DNA of 64,000 bases from Salinibacter grassmerensis (GTDB lineage: Bacteria; Bacteroidota; Rhodothermia; Rhodothermales; Salinibacteraceae): the NCBI RefSeq assembly GCF_947077765.1, contig NZ_CAMTTF010000001.1, positions 904,818 to 968,817 of the forward strand. Direction: 5' to 3'. Numbering within the stretch: the first letter of the stretch is position 1; every line of letters begins with the position of its first letter. Under the pieces are notes generated by a model. The model saw nothing but the letters and a program-made list of their open reading frames with translations. It searched no databases and had not been told where the DNA came from. Both the position numbers and the translations under genes were made by a program. Shown here piece after piece: positions 23,757 through 62,289 of this stretch.

Positions 23757-25127
23757 CTACAGCGTGCCGGTCAGGTAGCCCATCACGATGCCGAAGACGA
23801 CGACCGGAATGATGTACCGCATGCCGAAGATCCAGACCCGTAGGAAGCCGTCGGCCAGTGTCGAGCTGCCCTGACGGAGCTCGTCGGCCGCCTGGTCGGC
23901 GCCCCACACCCACCCGATGAAAACGCTCAGAAGGAAGGCCCCCACCGCCAGTCCAGCGCTTCCGATGAGGTAGTCGAGGACGCCGAGCACATTGTTCTGG
24001 CCAAACAGGCCGCCCTCGCCGAAGAGATAGGTCAGGTCGCTGAACGCGTCCACCGCGCCGAAGGAGAGGGCGGAGGGGAGCGCCATGAGGAACGTGATGG
24101 CCCCGACGATGCCCACCGACTTGCGGCGGGACCAGTTTTTCTCATCGACGAAGTAGGACACCACGACCTCCAGCAACGAGATACTGGAGGTGAGCGCCGC
24201 GATCGACAGAAGGACAAAGAACAGGAATCCGACGATCCCACCGAGGGGCATCTGGGCAAACACTTTGGGCAGGACCACGAACACGAGTGCCGGGCCCGTG
24301 GCCGGATCGGCGTCCATCGCGAACAGGGCGGGGAAGATCATGAACCCGGCCATGAGGGCAATCAGCGTGTTGAACAGGACCACGTAGCCCCCCGACACGG
24401 CGATGTCCTCGCGCTTGGGAAGGTACGATCCGTAGGTGATCATGGCCCCCATGCCGAGGCTGAGGGTAAAGAAGGCCTGCCCGAGGGCGGCAATCACGAG
24501 ATCGGGGGTGATTTGCGAGAAGTCGGGCACGAGGTAGAAGCGCAGCCCCTCGGCGGCCCCCTCGAGCGTGACGGCCCGGACGATGACGAGGAGAATCAGC
24601 ACGAACAGGACGGGGAGCAGGATTTTGGCCCACCGCTCGATGCCCTTCTCCACGCCCCCTACCACCACGAGGAGCGTGAGCAGCAGAAAGAAAGCCACCA
24701 GCCCGACGTTCAGCCACGGGGAGGCCGCAAACGCTTCGAAGCCCATGGCGGGGGCAATAACGTCTTTCACCGCGTACCCCACCGCCCATCCGGCCACCAC
24801 GCTGTAGTAGCTCAGAATGACGAACCCGGCGAGCACGCAGAACCCCCCCACCACGATCCAGGCGGAGCCGCCGCCGGTGATGGACTTGATGGCGCCGACC
24901 GGGTTCTTCTGGCTATTGCGTCCCAGCGACAGCTCGCCGAACAGGTAGGGCATCCCGATGAAGAGGATGCACAGCAGATAGATGAGGACGAAGGCCCCGC
25001 CCCCGCCCTCCCCGGCCAGGTAGGGAAAGCGCCAGATGTTGCCCAGCCCGATGGCGGACCCGGCGGCGGCGAGAACAAAACCGATCCGGGACGACCACTG
25101 CTCGCGGTCGGTCGAGGTCGTGCTCAT
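23757..25127 (-). CDS. Sodium-dependent amino acid transporter, NSS/SNF family (copy 1)
   Basis: This secondary transporter should import an amino acid or related amine together with Na+, a suitable driving ion in a salt-loving cell. The 456-residue product starts WSSRIGFVLAAAGSAIGLGN and continues with IWRFPYLAGEGGGGAF. These are the unwound TM1 and the Na1/Na2 sites seen in LeuT (AGNAVGLGNFLRFP). About 11-12 hydrophobic helices follow, including GGVEKGIERWAKILLPVLF (TM5/6) and the TM8 stretch LTSSISLLEVVVSYFVDE. I chose the ATG at 25127 because the LeuT match begins just after it; the frame opens at 25184. A close paralogue lies immediately upstream on the same strand. The substrate is not predictable. 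Confidence 0.92.
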   Translation of the reverse strand: MSTTSTDREQWSSRIGFVLAAAGSAIGLGNIWRFPYLAGEGGGGAFVLIYLLCILFIGMPYLFGELSLGRNSQKNPVGAIKSITGGGSAWIVVGGFCVLAGFVILSYYSVVAGWAVGYAVKDVIAPAMGFEAFAASPWLNVGLVAFFLLLTLLVVVGGVEKGIERWAKILLPVLFVLILLVIVRAVTLEGAAEGLRFYLVPDFSQITPDLVIAALGQAFFTLSLGMGAMITYGSYLPKREDIAVSGGYVVLFNTLIALMAGFMIFPALFAMDADPATGPALVFVVLPKVFAQMPLGGIVGFLFFVLLSIAALTSSISLLEVVVSYFVDEKNWSRRKSVGIVGAITFLMALPSALSFGAVDAFSDLTYLFGEGGLFGQNNVLGVLDYLIGSAGLAVGAFLLSVFIGWVWGADQAADELRQGSSTLADGFLRVWIFGMRYIIPVVVFGIVMGYLTGTL

Positions 25128-25296
25128 GGGAATCGTCGGGTTGGCTCGTGGAAGAGAGAGCCCGTAAGAACGGGCCTGGTGCATTCATCATCGACCGAAG
25201 TTAAAAGGTGACGAACGTGATCGCAATCGCGAGCCGGGGAATGGCCAATGAGCAGGTGGACGGCCGCGTCGCGGCGTGCGCCACCGGCGGTGCGCG

Positions 25297-26679
25297 TCAC
25301 AGTACGTCGTAGAGCAGGTCGACGACCAGCACGGTCAGGATCGTGACGGGGAAGACGTATTTGATTGTGGCACGCCAGATGGAGCCGACCCACCGCCCCA
25401 TCGTGTGCCCGTCGCCGGTCCGCAGTTCGGCCAGGGCGTTGTCGGCCCCCCACGCCCATCCCACGAACAGACTCAGAAGGACGGCGCCGAGGATGAGGGC
25501 CACGCTTCCCCAGAGAAAGTCCACGACATCCAGCACGCCGGGGCTGGGCCCGAGGAGCCGATCTCCGACGAGCCACGAGAGGTCGCTGAGCGCCGGCACG
25601 GCTCCCTGAGACAGGGCCGACGGCAGGCCAATGACGAATGCGACCCCCCCGGCGCTCCAGGCCGCTGTGCGGCGGGACCAGGTCGTCTCGTCAACGAGGT
25701 ACGAGACAAACACCTCCAGCAGCGAAATGCCCGACGTGAAGGCGGCGATGGCGAGAAAGAGGAAGAACAGCGTCCCGACGAACGACCCGAGCGGCATTGC
25801 CCCAAACACGTCGGGCAGGACCACGAACACGAGTGAGGGGCCCTCCGCTGGGTCTTGGCCCATTGCGAACACGGCGGGAAAGATCATCAGGCCCGCCATG
25901 AGGGCGATGAGGGTGTCGAAGACGGCAACACATCCGCCGGCGACGACCAGGTTTTCATCGTCGGGCAGGTACGAGCCGTAGGTAATCATCGTCCCCATGC
26001 CGAGGCTCAGGGAAAAGAAAGCCTGCCCGAGGGCCTCTACGACCATCAGTCCTGACACCTCCGAAAAATCGGGCATCAGATAGAACCTAAGCCCGGCGCC
26101 TGCGCCGGGCAGGGTAACGGCCCGAAAGATGATCAGGCAGAGGAGGACGAACAGCACCGGCATCAAAATTTTTGCCCATCGCTCGATGCCCCGACGGACC
26201 CCCCGAGCAACCACCCCGGCCGTGGCGACGAGAAAGCCGCCGAACAGCGGAACCACCCACAGCGGATCGGCAATGAATCGGGCAAAGGCGGTATCCGACG
26301 CTTCCGCGGCGGCGAGGTCTTGAAACACATATCCCACGGCCCAGCCGGCCACCACCGCGTAGTAGCTGAAAATCGCGAGCCCCGTCACCACGCAGAGGCC
26401 CCCGACGAGTGACCAGGGCGAGTGGCCCCGAATGGCCTGGATGGCCCCCACCGGATTCCGCTTGCTGTTGCGCCCGAGGGCCAGTTCCGCGAAGAGATAC
26501 GGAACGCAGAGGAAAAGAAGGCAGGCGAGGTAGATCAGCACGAAGGCGCCGCCCCCATTGTCGCCGGTCTTGAAGGGAAACCGCCAGATGTTGCCCAGGC
26601 CAATGGCCGACCCCGCCGCGGCGAGGACGAAGCCGAGCCGAGAGCTCCACTGCTCTCGTTCCGGGGAAGGAGAGGCCAT
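25297..26679 (-). CDS. Sodium-dependent amino acid transporter, NSS/SNF family (copy 2)
   Basis: The 460-residue product is a clear paralogue of the downstream copy. It shares WSSRLGFVLAAAGSAIGLGN, RNPVGAIQAI, GTMITYGSYLP and the TM8 stretch FTSGISLLEVFVSYLVDE. Differences cluster in the TM3-4 loop and the C-terminus, which suggests that the two copies may differ in substrate. The start at 26679 gives MASPSPERE, which aligns with the start of copy 1; the frame continues upstream to 26913 through non-homologous sequence. It lies 169 bases before copy 1 on the same strand. A hairpin with a T-run sits in its leader and may end transcription from upstream genes or attenuate this one. Confidence 0.92.
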   Translation of the reverse strand: MASPSPEREQWSSRLGFVLAAAGSAIGLGNIWRFPFKTGDNGGGAFVLIYLACLLFLCVPYLFAELALGRNSKRNPVGAIQAIRGHSPWSLVGGLCVVTGLAIFSYYAVVAGWAVGYVFQDLAAAEASDTAFARFIADPLWVVPLFGGFLVATAGVVARGVRRGIERWAKILMPVLFVLLCLIIFRAVTLPGAGAGLRFYLMPDFSEVSGLMVVEALGQAFFSLSLGMGTMITYGSYLPDDENLVVAGGCVAVFDTLIALMAGLMIFPAVFAMGQDPAEGPSLVFVVLPDVFGAMPLGSFVGTLFFLFLAIAAFTSGISLLEVFVSYLVDETTWSRRTAAWSAGGVAFVIGLPSALSQGAVPALSDLSWLVGDRLLGPSPGVLDVVDFLWGSVALILGAVLLSLFVGWAWGADNALAELRTGDGHTMGRWVGSIWRATIKYVFPVTILTVLVVDLLYDVL

Positions 26680-26703
26680 TTCGGGACAGGCGGTTGAACG
26701 AAG

Positions 26704-26726
26704 AAAAACGCCGCGCCGAGCGCGGC
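26704..26726 (-). terminator. Hairpin plus T-run upstream of SNF copy 2
   Basis: On the minus strand GCCGCG, a 5-base loop and CGCGGC are followed at once by G and TTTTT. This is a compact intrinsic-terminator shape. It lies about 145 bases after the 82-residue gene and 25 bases before the SNF copy 2 start. It could therefore end the ald/small-gene transcript or act as an attenuator in the SNF leader. Confidence 0.45.
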
Positions 26727-26869
26727 CTACCAGGCTGGGAGTGCCCGGAAGAAGCAAGGCAATTAGACCGCGAAGATAAAGGGTGCTCCCCCTGAACACA
26801 ACGACGAACGATGGGCGGAGAGCGCCTCTCCACGGAAAATCATGGAAAACAGAAACCCGATGAGGCGAC

Positions 26870-27118
26870 CTACGCGGTCCACGTGTCCTCGTCCGGGTAC
26901 CGGCCGCGCTCACAGTACGTCCGGAGTCGAGGAACGCCCTGCGCGAGGTAGAAGGGTGGACGGGCCGGCACGCCCTCGTCCGAAAGGTGCACCACCTCCA
27001 TATCGCCAGAGGTCTTGTATAGCTTCACGCGGCCGGCCACTGCGTCCTCGGCGCCCAGATCGTAGAGGCAGTAGCGCGGGGTTTCGTCCACCTTCCGGAG
27101 GGCTACGGAAAGGGCCAT
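26870..27118 (-). CDS. Small unknown protein encoded after ald
   Basis: The 82-residue product is soluble and starts MALSVALRKVDETPRYCLYD. It has short alternating strands (AGRVKLYKTSGDMEVVHL) and an acidic C-terminus (YPDEDTWTA). I recognise no family. It begins 13 bases after the alanine dehydrogenase stop on the same strand, so the two are very probably cotranscribed. The acidic composition is like that of its neighbours, which supports a real gene. A plus-strand frame over the same bases is less protein-like. Confidence 0.55.
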   Translation of the reverse strand: MALSVALRKVDETPRYCLYDLGAEDAVAGRVKLYKTSGDMEVVHLSDEGVPARPPFYLAQGVPRLRTYCERGRYPDEDTWTA

Positions 27119-56175: not shown

Positions 56176-57330
56176 TCAGTCGGTCGGAGGGGTGGGAAGC
56201 GACGAGCTGCCCTCGTACGGCGTGCCCGCCGCCGTGGTGCTGTCGTACTGCTGGGCAATGCTGATCGGGGCGCCCGGGGACACGTCGTTCTGCCCCACAA
56301 TAATGACCTCGTCGGTTGCGGAGAGGCCCGATTCTACAACTACGAGTTCCCCGCTGGAGGAACCGAGGACAAGGTCGCGCTTCCGGGCCACGCCCGTCGA
56401 ATCGGTCCGCTCCGCTACATAGGCGTGCGTGCCGGACTCGTCACGGATGACGGCCGAGCGGGGAACCGTGATGGCGCTGTCGATGACGGCACGGGTGACC
56501 CGGAGACTGACTCCCATCTCGGGCTTCAGTGTGCCGCGCTCGTTCGACACGGTCGCCTCGATGCTGAAGGTGCGGCTCTCAGGGTCAATTGTGTTCCCTA
56601 CGAACGTGACCTCGGCGGTGCGGACCCCCGCCCCGTAGCGCCGAAAGTCGAGCTGTACGGGGGTGCCCACCCGAATGTCGTTGGCGTAGCGCTCCGGAAC
56701 GCCGGCGGTCACCTTGACCCGTCGGGTATTCACTAGGCGGGCGATTCGAGTGCCCGGCGAAGCCTGCTCGCCCACTTCGGTAAACCGCTCTTCGATGCTT
56801 CCGGCGAAGGGCGCTCGGATCTGTGCGTTGTTGAGCCGGGTTTGGGCTTGAGAAAGAGCAGCCTGTGCCTGGTTGCGCTCCGAGCGCACCTGCTCGAACT
56901 CCAGCGCACTGATCACGGAGTCGCGGTAGAGCGGTTGTTGGCGCTGGAAGCGATCCTGGGCCAGGTCGTACCGGGCGCGTGCCTGCTCAACGGCCGCCTC
57001 CGCCTCTTCTGCGTCGATCTCGGCCACCACCTCGTCGGCCTCCACACGCGTGCCCAGGTCACGGAGCACCGTTACGGGCCCACTGGTCTGGGACGAGAGC
57101 GTAGCGTCGTCGAGGGCCTCCACGCTGCCGGTCAGGCTGATGACATCGGTGAATGAGGTGGAGGACAAGACGAGGGTTTCCACCCGCGAGGCCTGGGGCG
57201 CGCGCCCCTCGTCGGACTCATCCGAGGCGGAGCCATTGGTACACGCAGTTGTCCCCGCCAGGAGGCCGACGAGCAGTGCGGCCGCGACAGGTGTCGACCA
57301 GGAGAGGGAGGAAAACGTAGGCCGGTTCAT
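56176..57330 (-). CDS. RND efflux periplasmic adaptor (membrane fusion lipoprotein)
   Basis: The adaptor bridges the RND pump and the TolC channel. The 384-residue product has a lipobox LAGTTAC in its signal peptide (Cys near 30), so it should be lipid-anchored. The lipoyl-like half SQTSGPVTVLRDLGTRVEAD is followed by a helical hairpin (about 110-165, with ARYDLAQDRFQRQQPLYRDS and SERNQAQAALSQAQTRLNNA). The second half is RAPFAGSIEERFTEVGEQAS and the beta-barrel domain with VGTPVQLDFRRYG. The ATG at 57330 begins the signal; the frame opens 48 bases earlier. It lies between the TolC-like and RND genes on the same strand. Confidence 0.93.
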   Translation of the reverse strand: MNRPTFSSLSWSTPVAAALLVGLLAGTTACTNGSASDESDEGRAPQASRVETLVLSSTSFTDVISLTGSVEALDDATLSSQTSGPVTVLRDLGTRVEADEVVAEIDAEEAEAAVEQARARYDLAQDRFQRQQPLYRDSVISALEFEQVRSERNQAQAALSQAQTRLNNAQIRAPFAGSIEERFTEVGEQASPGTRIARLVNTRRVKVTAGVPERYANDIRVGTPVQLDFRRYGAGVRTAEVTFVGNTIDPESRTFSIEATVSNERGTLKPEMGVSLRVTRAVIDSAITVPRSAVIRDESGTHAYVAERTDSTGVARKRDLVLGSSSGELVVVESGLSATDEVIIVGQNDVSPGAPISIAQQYDSTTAAGTPYEGSSSLPTPPTD

Positions 57331-57439
57331 CGGGAAACGAGTGGAGATTGTCGGGGTAGAAAGAGGGCCGAAAGGCATGTCGCGCGGGAGAAGGAACCGT
57401 TCCGAAGCCTACCGCCGGGGTGGGAGCGGAGACCCCGGG

Positions 57440-59122
57440 TTATTCGAGACGAGCGGTCTCGAAGGAAGCGGCGTCCGGCACCCCGGCAGGCTGTCCGACG
57501 GCGGTTTCGAATGCGCTCTTGGCGTTCATGTAGTCCCGGACGGCCTGCAGGTAGTTGAGGCGGCTCTGGTCGAGCTGCCGCGAGGCCTCGCGCACCCGAA
57601 ACGGACTTGAGACGCCCTGCCCGAGTCGCTGCTGAGCGAAGCGGTAGTTGGTGCGGGCGGTCTCTAGGTTCGTAGACTGGGACTGAATCCGTTGGCGCGC
57701 CGCGTCCAGATTCCGCAGGGCACGCTGCACCTGAATGCGGACGGATTGGCGGAGCTGGGACACCTGCAGTTCCGCGCGCTGCACCGCTACCTCCTCCTGT
57801 TGAATGCTTGACCGCCGCTGAAAGCCGTCGAAGATATTCCAACTCAACTCCAGGCCTACGCTGAGAGAGGGGTTCCAGTACGAGTCCGCGAAGAAGCCCT
57901 GCGCCCGTTTGTCGAACTCGAACGGATCGGTCGGGTCCGAAATCACTGAGGTCCGGTTGCTCGGGACGCGCCCGGACATTGACAGGTTCGCCACCGCCGA
58001 CACGGTAGGGAAATAGCGGGCCTGCTCCGTGTTTTTGCGCACCTCTTGGAGTTCGGCGTTGAGGCGGGCCCGTTTCAGGTCTGCCCGGTTCCGGAGGGCC
58101 CGATCTACGGCGCTCTGGACCGCGACCTCGGTGTACTGGTCGCGCTGGTTAGCCTCCAGGTCGCCGGTGAGGCGGATTGTGGCGTCGGCGTCGATTCCCA
58201 TGGTCTGCTTCAACCCATCGAGGGCCGAGGCGTAGTCGGAGCGGGCCTGCACCAGTTGCGTCTCCCGGTTGGCCCGCTCCACCTCCGCGCTCAGGCGCTC
58301 GGACTTCGGCACGGTGCCGGCCGAGACCTGCTGGGACACCTCCTGAAACGTCTCTTTCGCCCGCTGCAGGCCCTGCCGCGCCACGTCGATCTGCTCACGG
58401 GCCAGGAGGGCGTCGTGGTAGGCCTGCCGCACCTCGTTGACGAGCACCCGCTTCTGCCGATCGAGGGCTGTTTGGTTCAAATCCTTGAGTGTCTTGGCCC
58501 CCTGCACCGCCGCAATGGCCTGGCCGTTGTAGAGCGTCTGCCGGAGGCTGAGGGCCCCGGTAAACTGGTTGGCCACCCCAAATGGGTTTCCTCCCCCACT
58601 GCCCGGCTCGATTCCGGCCTCCCTGCGCCCGGCTTGCTGGCGTCTCCGAAACTCCTGAATGGTGATGGGATCGGTATTCGAGTCACCATCCGTCCGGGCC
58701 TGCTCGTTGAACGTAACCCACTCCGACGCGCCGCCGCCCGAGAAAAGCCCCGTCACGTCGCTGCCCGCGAACGGATTGGCGGTCCTGATATTGCGGGTGT
58801 AACTGCCGGTGGCGTCGAGCTGAGGGTACAGCCGTCCCCACGCACTTTGAATGCGAGCATCGGCATTGCGCACGTCGAGCTGCACGTCCCGTAGAGAATA
58901 GCTCTCCTCCAGAGCGACCTGGATGGCGTCGGTGACGGAGAGTGGAGTGCCCGAGCGGCGACGCGCGGGCGACCGGTCCCGAGAGGTGTCCGGGCGGGCC
59001 GTGGTATCCGCAGTTGAGAGCGGCTCGACCGGCTGGGCCGGTGCGGCCGACGGTGTGAAGAGCGCCGCGCAGGTGCACACGGCGAGCCCGAGGACGAAAA
59101 ACGAGGAATGGAAGGCACGCAT
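57440..59122 (-). CDS. TolC-family outer-membrane efflux channel
   Basis: The 560-residue product forms the trimeric outer-membrane duct of the pump. It has a signal peptide (SSFFVLGLAVCTCAALFTPS, cleavage near 30) and then the two internal OEP repeats. The first repeat contains LSVTDAIQVALEESYSLRDV and ALSLRQTLYNGQAIAAVQGA; the second contains VGLELSWNIFDGFQRRSSIQ. Long amphipathic helices such as LLAREQIDVARQGLQRAKET and VRIQVQRALRNLDAARQRIQ build the periplasmic tunnel. An unusual Ser/Arg-rich linker of about 35 residues follows the signal peptide. The ATG at 59122 begins the signal. It starts 37 bases after the tetR stop. Confidence 0.92.
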   Translation of the reverse strand: MRAFHSSFFVLGLAVCTCAALFTPSAAPAQPVEPLSTADTTARPDTSRDRSPARRRSGTPLSVTDAIQVALEESYSLRDVQLDVRNADARIQSAWGRLYPQLDATGSYTRNIRTANPFAGSDVTGLFSGGGASEWVTFNEQARTDGDSNTDPITIQEFRRRQQAGRREAGIEPGSGGGNPFGVANQFTGALSLRQTLYNGQAIAAVQGAKTLKDLNQTALDRQKRVLVNEVRQAYHDALLAREQIDVARQGLQRAKETFQEVSQQVSAGTVPKSERLSAEVERANRETQLVQARSDYASALDGLKQTMGIDADATIRLTGDLEANQRDQYTEVAVQSAVDRALRNRADLKRARLNAELQEVRKNTEQARYFPTVSAVANLSMSGRVPSNRTSVISDPTDPFEFDKRAQGFFADSYWNPSLSVGLELSWNIFDGFQRRSSIQQEEVAVQRAELQVSQLRQSVRIQVQRALRNLDAARQRIQSQSTNLETARTNYRFAQQRLGQGVSSPFRVREASRQLDQSRLNYLQAVRDYMNAKSAFETAVGQPAGVPDAASFETARLE

Positions 59123-59159
59123 GAAGGGCGTCGTCACGTCGGATGGAGGATCGAACACG

Positions 59160-59861
59160 TCACGCAGAGGCTGAAGAGGGATCCCCGACCGCTAGGCCGT
59201 CGAACAGAATGGTCGTTAGAACGTCGGCCGCCCGGTCGGGGTTGTCCAGGGGACGAACCGCGCCGAAGGACGTGTCGGCGAGGGCGTGTTCGCCTTCGAG
59301 AATGTGGTGCGTTCCCATGCTCCGGAGGCTCGTGAACAGAACGTTCGCCACCAGTGTGGGGGGGAGGCGTCGAATTTCCGACTGGTCCATCGCCTCGCGG
59401 AGCACAGGCACAAAGGTGCCCAGCACACGCTCCTGCTGCTTCTCAAAAAACTCGACGCGCCCGGTTTCGTCACTGAACGCAATGGTGTGAATCTCCTTCA
59501 CCAGCACGAGAAACAGGTCCTGCTGGTCGCGGACCATCTCGAAGTAGCGCACCACGAACTCGTGGACCGTGTCCCGCAGTGGGCGGCCGTCGGGGGACGC
59601 GTGGAAGACCGTTCGGATGAGCCCTTCCAGCTCCTGGGAGGCCTTGTCAAAGACGGCGAGGAAAAGCTCTTCCTTTCCGCCCTCAAAATAGTTGTACAGC
59701 GTGCCCTTGCCGAATTCAGCCCGCTCCGCAATCTCGTCGAGCGTGGCGTCGGCGTATCCTTCCTCCGCGAAAACGGCCCGTGCGGCGTCGAGCATAGCCT
59801 GGCGTCGCCGCTTTCGCTCGCGCTCGCGACGAGACAGAGACGGATTGGAGGAGTTGGCCAT
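59160..59861 (-). CDS. TetR-family repressor of the efflux operon
   Basis: The 233-residue product has the TetR N-terminal helix-turn-helix at about residues 15-62: RRRQAMLDAARAVFAEEGYA and TLDEIAERAEFGKGTLYNYF. An all-helical ligand-binding C-domain follows, with a typical VHEFVVRYFEMVRDQQDLFL stretch near 110. It is the first gene of the tetR-tolC-adaptor-RND operon and should repress it until an inducer binds. The ATG at 59861 is preferred; the frame extends to 59912 through unrelated residues. A perfect 20-bp palindrome about 53-72 bases upstream is its likely operator. Confidence 0.92.
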   Translation of the reverse strand: MANSSNPSLSRRERERKRRRQAMLDAARAVFAEEGYADATLDEIAERAEFGKGTLYNYFEGGKEELFLAVFDKASQELEGLIRTVFHASPDGRPLRDTVHEFVVRYFEMVRDQQDLFLVLVKEIHTIAFSDETGRVEFFEKQQERVLGTFVPVLREAMDQSEIRRLPPTLVANVLFTSLRSMGTHHILEGEHALADTSFGAVRPLDNPDRAADVLTTILFDGLAVGDPSSASA

Positions 59862-59913
59862 GAAGCAGAGCGCCCGGATGGATGAAAAGTCAGAATATGA
59901 CCGTCGAGTCAAC

Positions 59914-60118: not shown

Positions 60119-61465
60119 CTAGCGCCCCACCGCGGAGCAGCCGAGCCCCTCGAGCGACTCGTTCAGAAGCGACAGGCTCTCGGTGGTGTCCACGCGGGCC
60201 CCGAGCCGGGTCAGCAGGTTGAGAAGGCCGACCAGGGCCTTGTTGAGAAAGATGAAGTGCGGGGACCCCGTGGCGGCGCGGAGGTGGGAGGCCTGCTCGA
60301 AGCAGTCCTGCAGGCGATTCCGAAAGGCCGGGTCGCCGAAGTCGAAGGAGGCCTGGCTGTAGGGCTCCACGATGAGCGAGCCGTACTCGTCGAAGAAGTG
60401 ACGCAGGTCCTCCTGGGTATCCGCGGGCAGGTCGTCGTGGAGGATGTCGAGGGTGTGGAGGAGGTGCGTAATCGCGTCCTCGTCGTCGGCCATGCGGGCC
60501 CGAAACAGGCGCAGCATGTCGTCGCGGAACTGCTGAGGGAAGGTTTTTACACAGCCGAAGTCGATGACACCGAGCCGCCCGTCCTCGCGGAAGAGGAAGT
60601 TGCCGGGATGCGTATCGGCGTGGAGGGTGCGGGCATTGCCCGCCACCTGCTCGTGGAGAAAGTCCCACAGCAGTTGCCCGAATCGATCGCGCTCGCCCTG
60701 ACTGGGGTCCGCTTCGAGGAAGGCATCGAGATGCTGACCGTCCACGTGTGTCATCGTCAGGACCGTTTCGGCCGTCCGGTCGGGCACCGGGCGGGGGACG
60801 ACGAGCTTTTCCCCGTTGTACTGGTCTGCAAAGTGGTCGATGTTCTGGGCCTCGTTCAGATAGTCCGTTTCCTCCTGGAGCCGGGTCTTCACTTCTTCGA
60901 AATGGGCGTCGACCCCGTCGCCCTGGATCAGGCGCTCGAACAGCGTGCGGGCCACCGACAGGTCGGACTCGATGGTCTCCCGCACGTTGGGATACTGCAC
61001 CTTGACCGCGACGTCACGGCCGTCGTCCAGGCGCGCCCGATGGACCTGGCCGAGCGAGGCGGCGGCCATCGCCTCCGGCTCAAACTCGTCGAAGATCAGC
61101 TCCGGAAAGCGCCCGAGCCCGTCCCGAATCCGCTTGCGCACGAGTGCCTTGTTCATCGGCGGCACGCTGTACTGCGCCTCCGCCATCACCTCCATGAACT
61201 CGTCCGGCAGCAGGCCGGTGTCCATGCTCATCGACTGGGCGAGCTTGAGGGCCGTCCCGCGGAGCCGAGTAAACTCCTCAAAGAGATCGCGGGCGTTCTG
61301 TGCGTTGAGCTCTCGCTTCCGCGCCTCCGGGTCGTCCGCGCCAGTGGCCCGGTCCATGAGGTACTGGGCGTAGTTCTTCCCCACCTTCAGCCCCGTCTTG
61401 GCAAAGAGGCCGCTCCGCTCCAGCTTGGAGGCGGGAAAGTCGTCGGGGGCGTCATCGGTGCTCAT
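60119..61465 (-). CDS. UbiB/COQ8 (ABC1/AarF) atypical kinase
   Basis: UbiB-family atypical kinases support quinone or other isoprenoid-lipid handling at membranes. The 448-residue product has the family's N-terminal KxGQ-type motif as KLAQ at residues 74-77 (LKLAQSMSMDTGLLPDEF). The Ala-rich loop AAAS at 134-137 replaces the normal P-loop, and the nucleotide Lys is K155 (VAVKVQYPN). The catalytic region is HADTHPGNFLF and the metal-binding motif is VIDFG. The Gly of KxGQ is Ala here, a small change. No C-terminal membrane helices of E. coli UbiB type are obvious. It lies 146 bases after a TetR-fold gene on the same strand, recalling the COQ8/COQ9 partnership. Confidence 0.88.
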   Translation of the reverse strand: MSTDDAPDDFPASKLERSGLFAKTGLKVGKNYAQYLMDRATGADDPEARKRELNAQNARDLFEEFTRLRGTALKLAQSMSMDTGLLPDEFMEVMAEAQYSVPPMNKALVRKRIRDGLGRFPELIFDEFEPEAMAAASLGQVHRARLDDGRDVAVKVQYPNVRETIESDLSVARTLFERLIQGDGVDAHFEEVKTRLQEETDYLNEAQNIDHFADQYNGEKLVVPRPVPDRTAETVLTMTHVDGQHLDAFLEADPSQGERDRFGQLLWDFLHEQVAGNARTLHADTHPGNFLFREDGRLGVIDFGCVKTFPQQFRDDMLRLFRARMADDEDAITHLLHTLDILHDDLPADTQEDLRHFFDEYGSLIVEPYSQASFDFGDPAFRNRLQDCFEQASHLRAATGSPHFIFLNKALVGLLNLLTRLGARVDTTESLSLLNESLEGLGCSAVGR

Positions 61466-61611
61466 GCTGTGTTGAGGTCTATGGAGGGTACTGCGGAAGA
61501 GCAATGAGACTGGTCAGAGGACGATGCCCCCCGGATGCAAAGTTCAGCCGCGCACGACCCGCTGCGTGGCGTCGCCCGTGTGGCCGGAAACGGGGCTTCT
61601 GCGACTGGGCA

Positions 61612-62289
61612 CTACCGCCCCGGAAAGAACCGTCCTACGACCGGGAGCCGCCCGATTCCGAGCGAATCGTGCTGCACGATATGCCAGGCAAGATTCACTC
61701 CACTGGACACGCCGCGAAAGGTCACCAGCTCGGCGACGAACGCGACGAGCTTATCGACGAGCGCCGTGGTGGCCTCCTGGTCCTCGGTCTCGTCCCGAGT
61801 CCAGTGGCGGATGAGGGCAAACGTGACCTCGGTCAGCACCTCGTGTGCCGGCCACAGCCCCGTGACGAGTTGATTTGTGCCCGGCACGAGGCCGTCCTCC
61901 GTCAAGAGGCCGCGGAGGGTGTCCCGCACTCCGGTCCGGAATGAGGACTGGTAGCGGACCTGGTCGTCGAAGGTGGCCCGCACGAATGCGCGTTGCTCCC
62001 CGAGCGCGTCGAGCAGAATGTAGTAGAACGACGCCAGGCGCTCCTCGAATGAGAAGTCCTCGTAGCCGGTGGTGGCCGCCGTGAGCATCCGGTACTGCTC
62101 AAGCGCAAGGTCGTAGAAGGCGGGAGGAAGTTCGTCGACCGTCTCGAAGTGGGACTCGAACACGGCCCGTTCGACCTCTGCGTCGGCACACACCTCCGAG
62201 ACGGTCAGGGACGCCTCCTGCTCTCTGCGGAGACGGAGGGCCGCTTCAACGAGCTGCTTCTTCTCGGCGAACGCGTCGGGATCGGGAAT
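61612..62289 (-). CDS. TetR-fold protein paired with the UbiB-like kinase; start codon unclear
   Basis: The reading frame matches a TetR-fold protein: a first helix DPDAFAEKKQLVEAALRLRR, a degenerate HTH (SEVCADAEVERAVFESHFET), and a helical C-domain with FSFEERLASFYYILLDAL and a conserved-looking VNLAWHIVQHDSLGIGRLPV end. This homology continues about 90 bases upstream of the first standard start (GTG at 62193). No ATG, GTG or TTG lies between there and the in-frame TAA at 62323-62325. The coordinates given use the ATT at 62289; an ATC at 62295 is an alternative. Either a rare start is used or the 5' end is damaged. The HTH lacks the usual GxxxGTxYxYF pattern, so DNA binding is doubtful. Confidence 0.65.
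   Translation of the reverse strand: MPDPDAFAEKKQLVEAALRLRREQEASLTVSEVCADAEVERAVFESHFETVDELPPAFYDLALEQYRMLTAATTGYEDFSFEERLASFYYILLDALGEQRAFVRATFDDQVRYQSSFRTGVRDTLRGLLTEDGLVPGTNQLVTGLWPAHEVLTEVTFALIRHWTRDETEDQEATTALVDKLVAFVAELVTFRGVSSGVNLAWHIVQHDSLGIGRLPVVGRFFPGR

Follow-up and report, generated by a model that had tools for sequence, protein, structure and literature searches.

Does the TetR-fold protein encoded next to a UbiB gene in the window (the whole 64,000-nucleotide stretch of Salinibacter grassmerensis DNA analysed here, G000:C1:904818-968817) regulate its neighbour, or do the two proteins work together? The original prediction favoured a bacterial counterpart of COQ9 and COQ8 over a regulator and its target. 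COQ9 binds lipids and partners COQ7 in the synthesis of coenzyme Q, and the pair recalls the use made of COQ9 and COQ8 in mitochondria for greasy quinone precursors. It would offer a two-gene system for testing a 'UbiB plus lipid carrier' mechanism, and a UbiB role outside coenzyme Q synthesis. The component families are already known. A search of open-access full texts, with subscription papers mostly outside its scope, found no description of the TetR-fold/UbiB pair, and within that literature the constant pairing, the decay of the DNA-binding region and the COQ9-family affinity appear undescribed.

Two tandem genes on the minus strand

The gene order on the minus strand is a rhodanese-domain gene (63733-62429), the TetR-fold gene (62289-61612) and UbiB (61465-60119). 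The TetR-fold gene (61612..62289) encodes a protein of 225 residues, with a degenerate helix-turn-helix (HTH) and a COQ9-like C-terminal domain, which matches the Pfam family TetR_C_23 (PF17931) with 34.3 bits against a cut-off of 29.1. The UbiB reading frame covers 60119-61504, and its first ATG, at 61465, yields a short UbiB/ABC1 protein of 448 residues (60119..61465). That the first gene stands directly before an ABC1/UbiB kinase was confirmed: the TetR-fold stop and the UbiB ATG are 146 nt apart, and the UbiB matches PF03109 (ABC1) with E 3.8e-58. It carries the AAAS loop, the catalytic motif and the DFG expected of an ABC1 domain, has the motifs HADTHPGN and DFGC as well as KLAQ in place of KxGQ, and shows no transmembrane-like segment by hydropathy.

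The TetR-fold frame, which ends at 61612, contains no ATG at all, and no ATG, GTG or TTG upstream of 62193. Codon alignments suggest that translation probably begins at the ATT at 62287..62289 (minus strand), because protein conservation among relatives, which include Salinibacter altiplanensis and Salinivenus, begins at that codon, whose position matches the end coordinate given in the original prediction. Upstream of it, 14 codons show little conservation at the protein level, and downstream synonymous changes are plentiful. Of the 11 readable genus members, 9, the window among them, have ATT at 62289 and the other 2 have ATC. In sister genera a GTG or an ATG lies no more than a codon or two away, and two relatives (L009 and L010) have an in-frame ATG further upstream. 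ATT starts are known from E. coli infC and pcnB, where they limit translation.

The TetR-fold gene is constantly paired with UbiB

The TetR-fold gene is encoded in 20 of 41 close genomes, with UbiB within 1.5 kb in 17 of them. Across the phylum, we surveyed 296 Bacteroidota genomes with a completeness of 90% or more. PF17931 was present in 88, always as a single copy, and every one of the 88 proteins was encoded directly upstream of UbiB on the same strand, far above chance (in 3 of the 88 pairs, more than 1 kb separates the matched domains). The genome survey thus gave the opposite of the outcome that had been named as refuting the prediction, a lack of conserved pairing in other genomes. The paired UbiBs have open frames of mostly 421-492 codons. 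Seven further UbiBs under 530 codons seemed unpaired at first; a 13-row seed profile of the TetR-fold family found the TetR-fold gene upstream of five (G028, G214, G266, G269 and G316; E 4e-11 to 2e-41). The remaining two, L108 and L109, are UbiBs of another sort, the first with 27% identity over 211 residues and the second with no tblastn hit. L109, from genome G137, is a second short UbiB that has diverged strongly, carries KVGQ and sits on a long branch in the tree; a profile search detected no TetR-fold partner for it.

The two genes overlap or lie at most 10 nt apart in 34 of the 54 loci with a placeable start, leaving scant room for a promoter there; 12 of 66 loci, the window among them, had no placeable start and were dropped from this count. 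In 50 of 52 loci UbiB was at most three genes away from its partner, L111 and L113 being the exceptions, and the next neighbour family reached 14 (a count that leaves out 5 of 57 loci in which the gene caller missed the TetR gene).

Both genes are also retained where they have become separated. In Longimonas halophila (G014) a single contig carries both, on opposite strands and with 16.5 kb between them. In G021 the genes fall on different contigs, and UbiB is set 8.5 kb inside its contig; UbiB identity is 63% in both genomes. In G024 each gene sits at a contig end, so that the two may or may not be adjacent; of the three UbiBs counted below as non-adjacent, those of G014 and G021 are the ones clearly apart. 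Conversely, five members without a detected TetR-fold gene, searched from the eight such genus or family members (four of the five less than 90% complete), all carry only UbiBs of 27-30% identity. We regard a functional partnership between the TetR-fold protein and UbiB as almost certain. A fusion of the two genes, apparent as a 705-residue open frame in L016, was rejected: the TetR-fold gene stops at a TGA before the UbiB start.

The DNA-binding region of the TetR-fold protein is decayed

The claim of a degenerate DNA-binding motif holds because in a genome-wide scan the HTH (approximately residues 8-47, 62149..62268, minus strand) scored 12.8 bits, far short of the TetR_N cut-off of 24 that nine other sites in the same genome pass. 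A Pfam search with the window protein, which matched PF17931, gave no TetR_N match at E <= 1, and NCBIfam matches in the HTH region were weak (FabR 0.0077, BetI 0.17). Among 45 family members, 44 match TetR_C_23 at E <= 1 and 8 retain residual TetR_N similarity at the same threshold; the FPNKK turn is still present in members of family f18.

Conservation points the same way. Across 13 orthologues, HTH identity is 0.47 versus 0.73 elsewhere in the protein, making it the least conserved part, whereas a genuine TetR encoded nearby shows the opposite pattern, 0.84 in the HTH versus 0.47 elsewhere (13 orthologues; both sets comprise the same 12 species plus the window). HTH charge, -6 over residues 8-54 and -7 over the matched stretch in the window, was rejected as a mark of non-binding since the nine genuine TetRs of the genome span 0 to -7. 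Judged from its sequence, the TetR-fold protein is very probably not a DNA-binding regulator, and other Bacteroidota proteins annotated as TetR regulators via PF17931 may be no regulators either.

A C-terminal domain akin to the COQ9 family

One of five AlphaFold2 models of the TetR-fold protein was confident (pLDDT 80.0, pTM 0.78; the other four, built like it from 13 rows, had pLDDT 48.5-53.2), and it showed a predicted TetR fold with extra C-terminal helices, the latter at low confidence. A TetR fold combined with a degenerate HTH is a trait of COQ9 (PF08511), which the window protein shares as far as the model can be trusted. The top Foldseek match was 3ni7 of Nitrosomonas europaea. Its sequence fragment scores 25.6 bits with Pfam COQ9, over the cut-off of 20.5, and also matches TetR_C_23 (3.6e-5). 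DesT bound to palmitoyl-CoA ranked second and FadR next. In VIA-align, the best match was the actinobacterial TetR_C_23 protein 3c07 (Z 15.9; 4.1 Å, 188 residues); 3ni7 reached Z 14.6 (3.2 Å, 164 residues) and human COQ9 Z 13.4, 13.2 and 13.0 (4.5 Å, 173-178 residues; ranks 5, 6 and 8), with many TetRs within one Z unit of the human values. The structural comparison thus upheld a related predicted fold, but 3c07 scored above COQ9.

The C-terminal domain discriminated better than whole-fold comparison. We compared a C-terminal profile of 45 rows, hand-chosen from 109 profile hits, with a five-row COQ9-family profile (Tistrella, Nitrosomonas, Sphingomonas, Novosphingobium and human), and obtained 95.9% (E 6e-9, 119 columns). 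This is a repeat without a Methylobacterium row and two Azospirillum rows; a first COQ9 profile (94.8%) was rejected because the Methylobacterium row and a scanned Azospirillum row failed Pfam COQ9. As single rows, Tistrella reached 94.8%, Nitrosomonas 67.9%, Sphingomonas 28.7%, human 15.4% and Novosphingobium 3.2%, and the ubiquinone-type COQ9 proteins taken together (Sphingomonas, Novosphingobium, human) gave a weak 42.5% (E 2.6e-4). In controls, the nine genuine TetRs of the genome stayed at or below 1.5% as single rows, and the genuine neighbour TetR gave 0.2% as a 13-row profile. Two actinobacterial TetR_C_23 proteins reached 96.1% as well. By these profile comparisons, therefore, the domain is a relative of both, the COQ9 family and actinobacterial TetR_C_23 alike.

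A six-frame scan of 148 genomes with the COQ9 model itself found no place over the gathering score; at E <= 1, 10 of 56 sub-threshold places were the TetR-fold gene, and a simple uniform model puts the probability of such an overlap by chance at about 1e-30. No match at E <= 1 fell in the genome of the window. COQ9 was matched weakly by 6 of the 45 members (best E 0.018), and TetR_C_8 by 4 of 45 with a better best E of 7e-4. In relatives, COQ9 profile positions of about 40-67 match the C-terminal motif W-x-x-D-x-[ST]-x(5)-T-x(4)-[DE]-K (approximately residues 162-190, 61720..61806, minus strand, from the 45-member alignment). This motif, including its D-x-S-x-D-x-x-x-T core, is in large part common to the COQ9 family, reading SPDFEKTDVFIEKSVN in member L082 and SPDFEDTWRFLENRVN in human COQ9.

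A further possible likeness to COQ9 is an extra helix behind the ninth TetR helix. Here it is predicted at residues 194-206 (61672..61710, minus strand) with low confidence (pLDDT about 50-56). In this low-confidence model it is mildly amphipathic (mean moment 0.44 versus a background of 0.30), which makes it a candidate membrane helix; 13 of 45 members have a moment of at least 0.5 there. Of human COQ9, one study describes the amphipathic alpha10 as important in membrane binding, and menaquinone-8 and other isoprenoid lipids as co-purifying with the protein from E. coli (PMC9774615).

The TetR-fold protein differs from COQ9 in falling below its cut-off, in being genetically tied to UbiB and in belonging to a genome that carries MenD. 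The actinobacterial TetR_C_23 proteins share its Pfam C-terminal domain, but 3c07 has an intact HTH (TetR_N 4.5e-19), and two plasmid-borne relatives, from Streptomyces and Nonomuraea, have no UbiB-like match within 5 kb. Since these proteins, with their good HTH, are as close as the COQ9 family or closer, the C-terminal domain alone cannot exclude a regulator.

The paired UbiB is a short protein with COQ8-like motif context

All 63 UbiBs examined (60 paired and 3 non-adjacent) carry G-x-x-LK-x-AQ and DFGC; KxAQ thus replaces the KxGQ signature in each of them. The 48 unpaired UbiBs mostly have LG/MG-x(3-4)-KxGQ. KxAQ was rejected as an exclusive mark of paired UbiBs: 5 of the 48 carry it too, in the other context, so that it is a variant within the UbiB family. 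The residue behind DFG in unpaired UbiBs is M or A, as read in 15 of the 48. A transmembrane-like segment was predicted from hydropathy in 48 of 48 unpaired UbiBs, 1 of 60 paired and 1 of 3 non-adjacent ones, the latter two sets having been cut to their last 460 residues against open-frame extension. Throughout the sampled Bacteroidota, each COQ9-like TetR-fold protein of this kind is tied to a UbiB without membrane segments.

A quick, midpoint-rooted tree was built from 64 of the 115 sequences; its branches are long, and just four sequences come from outside. In it the paired and non-adjacent UbiBs formed one group (support 100). This group joined COQ8 and MABP-1 (support 100), and the 25 unpaired UbiBs stood apart. 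The paired UbiBs have in common with COQ8/ADCK3 and MABP-1 that the signature motif stands in a G-x-x-[LM]K context, and they fall beside them in this quick tree. They differ in having KxAQ and DFGC where COQ8 and MABP-1 have KxGQ and DFGA, and in their constant TetR-fold partner.

Part of the literature on COQ8 bears on the proposed role. The Coq8 ATPase may be coupled to the extraction of CoQ intermediates (PMC10376127). A reconstructed tetrapod-ancestor COQ8B acts on COQ3 and COQ6 but only marginally on COQ7:COQ9, and so the sections of that study concerned with this activity do not establish a direct COQ8-COQ9 link (PMC7615680).

The COQ9/COQ8 reading is thus partly supported. A COQ9-related C-terminal domain and a COQ8-like UbiB context speak for it, but no COQ9 cut-off was passed in any of the genomes scanned and the match to ubiquinone-type COQ9 was weak. 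The statement that the pair is not a regulator and its target gains from HTH decay, but is tempered by TetR_C_23 proteins with an intact HTH that are at least as close.

The pair as a putative lipid-handling module

The best explanation, to which we give a probability of roughly 60%, is that the two genes form one lipid-handling module consisting of a lipid carrier and a soluble UbiB ATPase. The TetR-fold protein would have lost DNA binding, its putative TetR ligand pocket having been turned into a carrier for hydrophobic molecules; by analogy with COQ9, we consider a lipid carrier rather probable. Its C-terminal helix may dock it on the inner membrane. Its UbiB partner, lacking a membrane segment, would be a soluble ATPase/kinase of the COQ8 type, bearing the KxAQ motif, that acts together with the carrier and probably drives lipid extraction or loading. 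Physical contact between the two proteins and ATP use by UbiB would both follow from such a scheme. A lipid-binding protein gene beside UbiB is also found in E. coli, as UbiJ-UbiB; lipid binding is putative here, and UbiJ differs in having an SCP2 fold and serving ubiquinone synthesis.

Among possible cargoes, menaquinone, one of its precursors or some other isoprenoid would be the most plausible, although a quinone or isoprenoid in particular is a tentative assignment and less likely than not. Bacteroidota members are known for menaquinone, and MenD is present in 82 of the 88 pair-positive genomes. A tie of the pair to the MenD route was rejected despite this co-occurrence: MenD is absent from the other 6, and PF17931 from 138 of 220 MenD genomes, so that the pair is unneeded for menaquinone as such. 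Co-occurrence with COX1 (88 of 88) was also set aside as carrying little information, since COX1 is found in 281 of 296 genomes overall.

These same figures on MenD are what a module for some other lipid (phospholipid, carotenoid, lipid A or acyl-CoA) would account for. The COQ9 likeness would then reflect a common lipid-binding TetR fold only, consistent with FadR, DesT and EthR being structural neighbours of the model too. This possibility overlaps the best explanation and differs from it solely in the lipid; the relationship of the C-terminal domain to the COQ9 family and the grouping of UbiB with COQ8 and MABP-1 in the quick tree argue against it, and we consider it a minority possibility.

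Somewhat less probable, though still to be reckoned with, is that the TetR-fold protein is a protein-only adaptor, that is, an obligate subunit, allosteric regulator or kinase substrate of UbiB that binds no lipid and keeps its pocket as a relic. Pairing, retention after separation, HTH decay and core conservation are explained equally well by such an adaptor; its C-terminal likeness to the lipid-binding COQ9 family, and the ranking of palmitoyl-CoA-bound DesT and FadR behind the top Foldseek match, speak against it.

An ordinary regulator that represses or activates the ubiB operon upon binding a lipid is improbable: local regulators typically stand in this gene order, 3c07 keeps a good HTH, 8 of 45 members retain TetR_N similarity and the 146-nt gap in the window could hold a promoter, but the HTH lies far under the cut-off and is the least conserved part, opposite to a genuine TetR, most loci with a placeable start leave little intergenic space, and both genes are retained though apart in Longimonas.

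Returning to the carrier-and-ATPase module, a bolder and decidedly long-shot extension would make it an ancient one that predates ubiquinone synthesis. COQ9 and COQ8 of mitochondria would be its later, genetically separated forms, and UbiB would originally have used ATP to lift isoprenoid lipids out of the membrane and pass them to a carrier protein.

Surroundings of the pair

In many genomes of family f18 (L061, L063-L065, L067, L070-L074) the contig stops some 1.3 kb away from the pair. In the closed genome L062 a masked 5-kb stretch starts on the upstream side of the pair, as if a repeated element, for instance an rRNA operon, adjoined it; a tRNA scan of seven loci found none. One genus has extra frames between the TetR-fold gene and ubiB, namely one gene in L090 and L102, which from its sequence we take to be HAD-phosphatase-like, and two short ones in L091.

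Beyond UbiB on the minus strand of the window lies the genuine TetR gene (59912-59160), followed by OMF, MFP and RND efflux genes (56176-59912 for the whole set), the RND gene presumably being such from its sequence. A link between the pair and efflux was rejected: the genuine TetR had a match in 12 of 12 relatives searched, and lay behind the pair in only 3 of the 12. Farther away, two tandem transporter-like genes (23757-26913), which presumably resemble sodium-dependent neurotransmitter-type transporters, coincide with a strong AT skew at 24-28 kb that we regard as ordinary.
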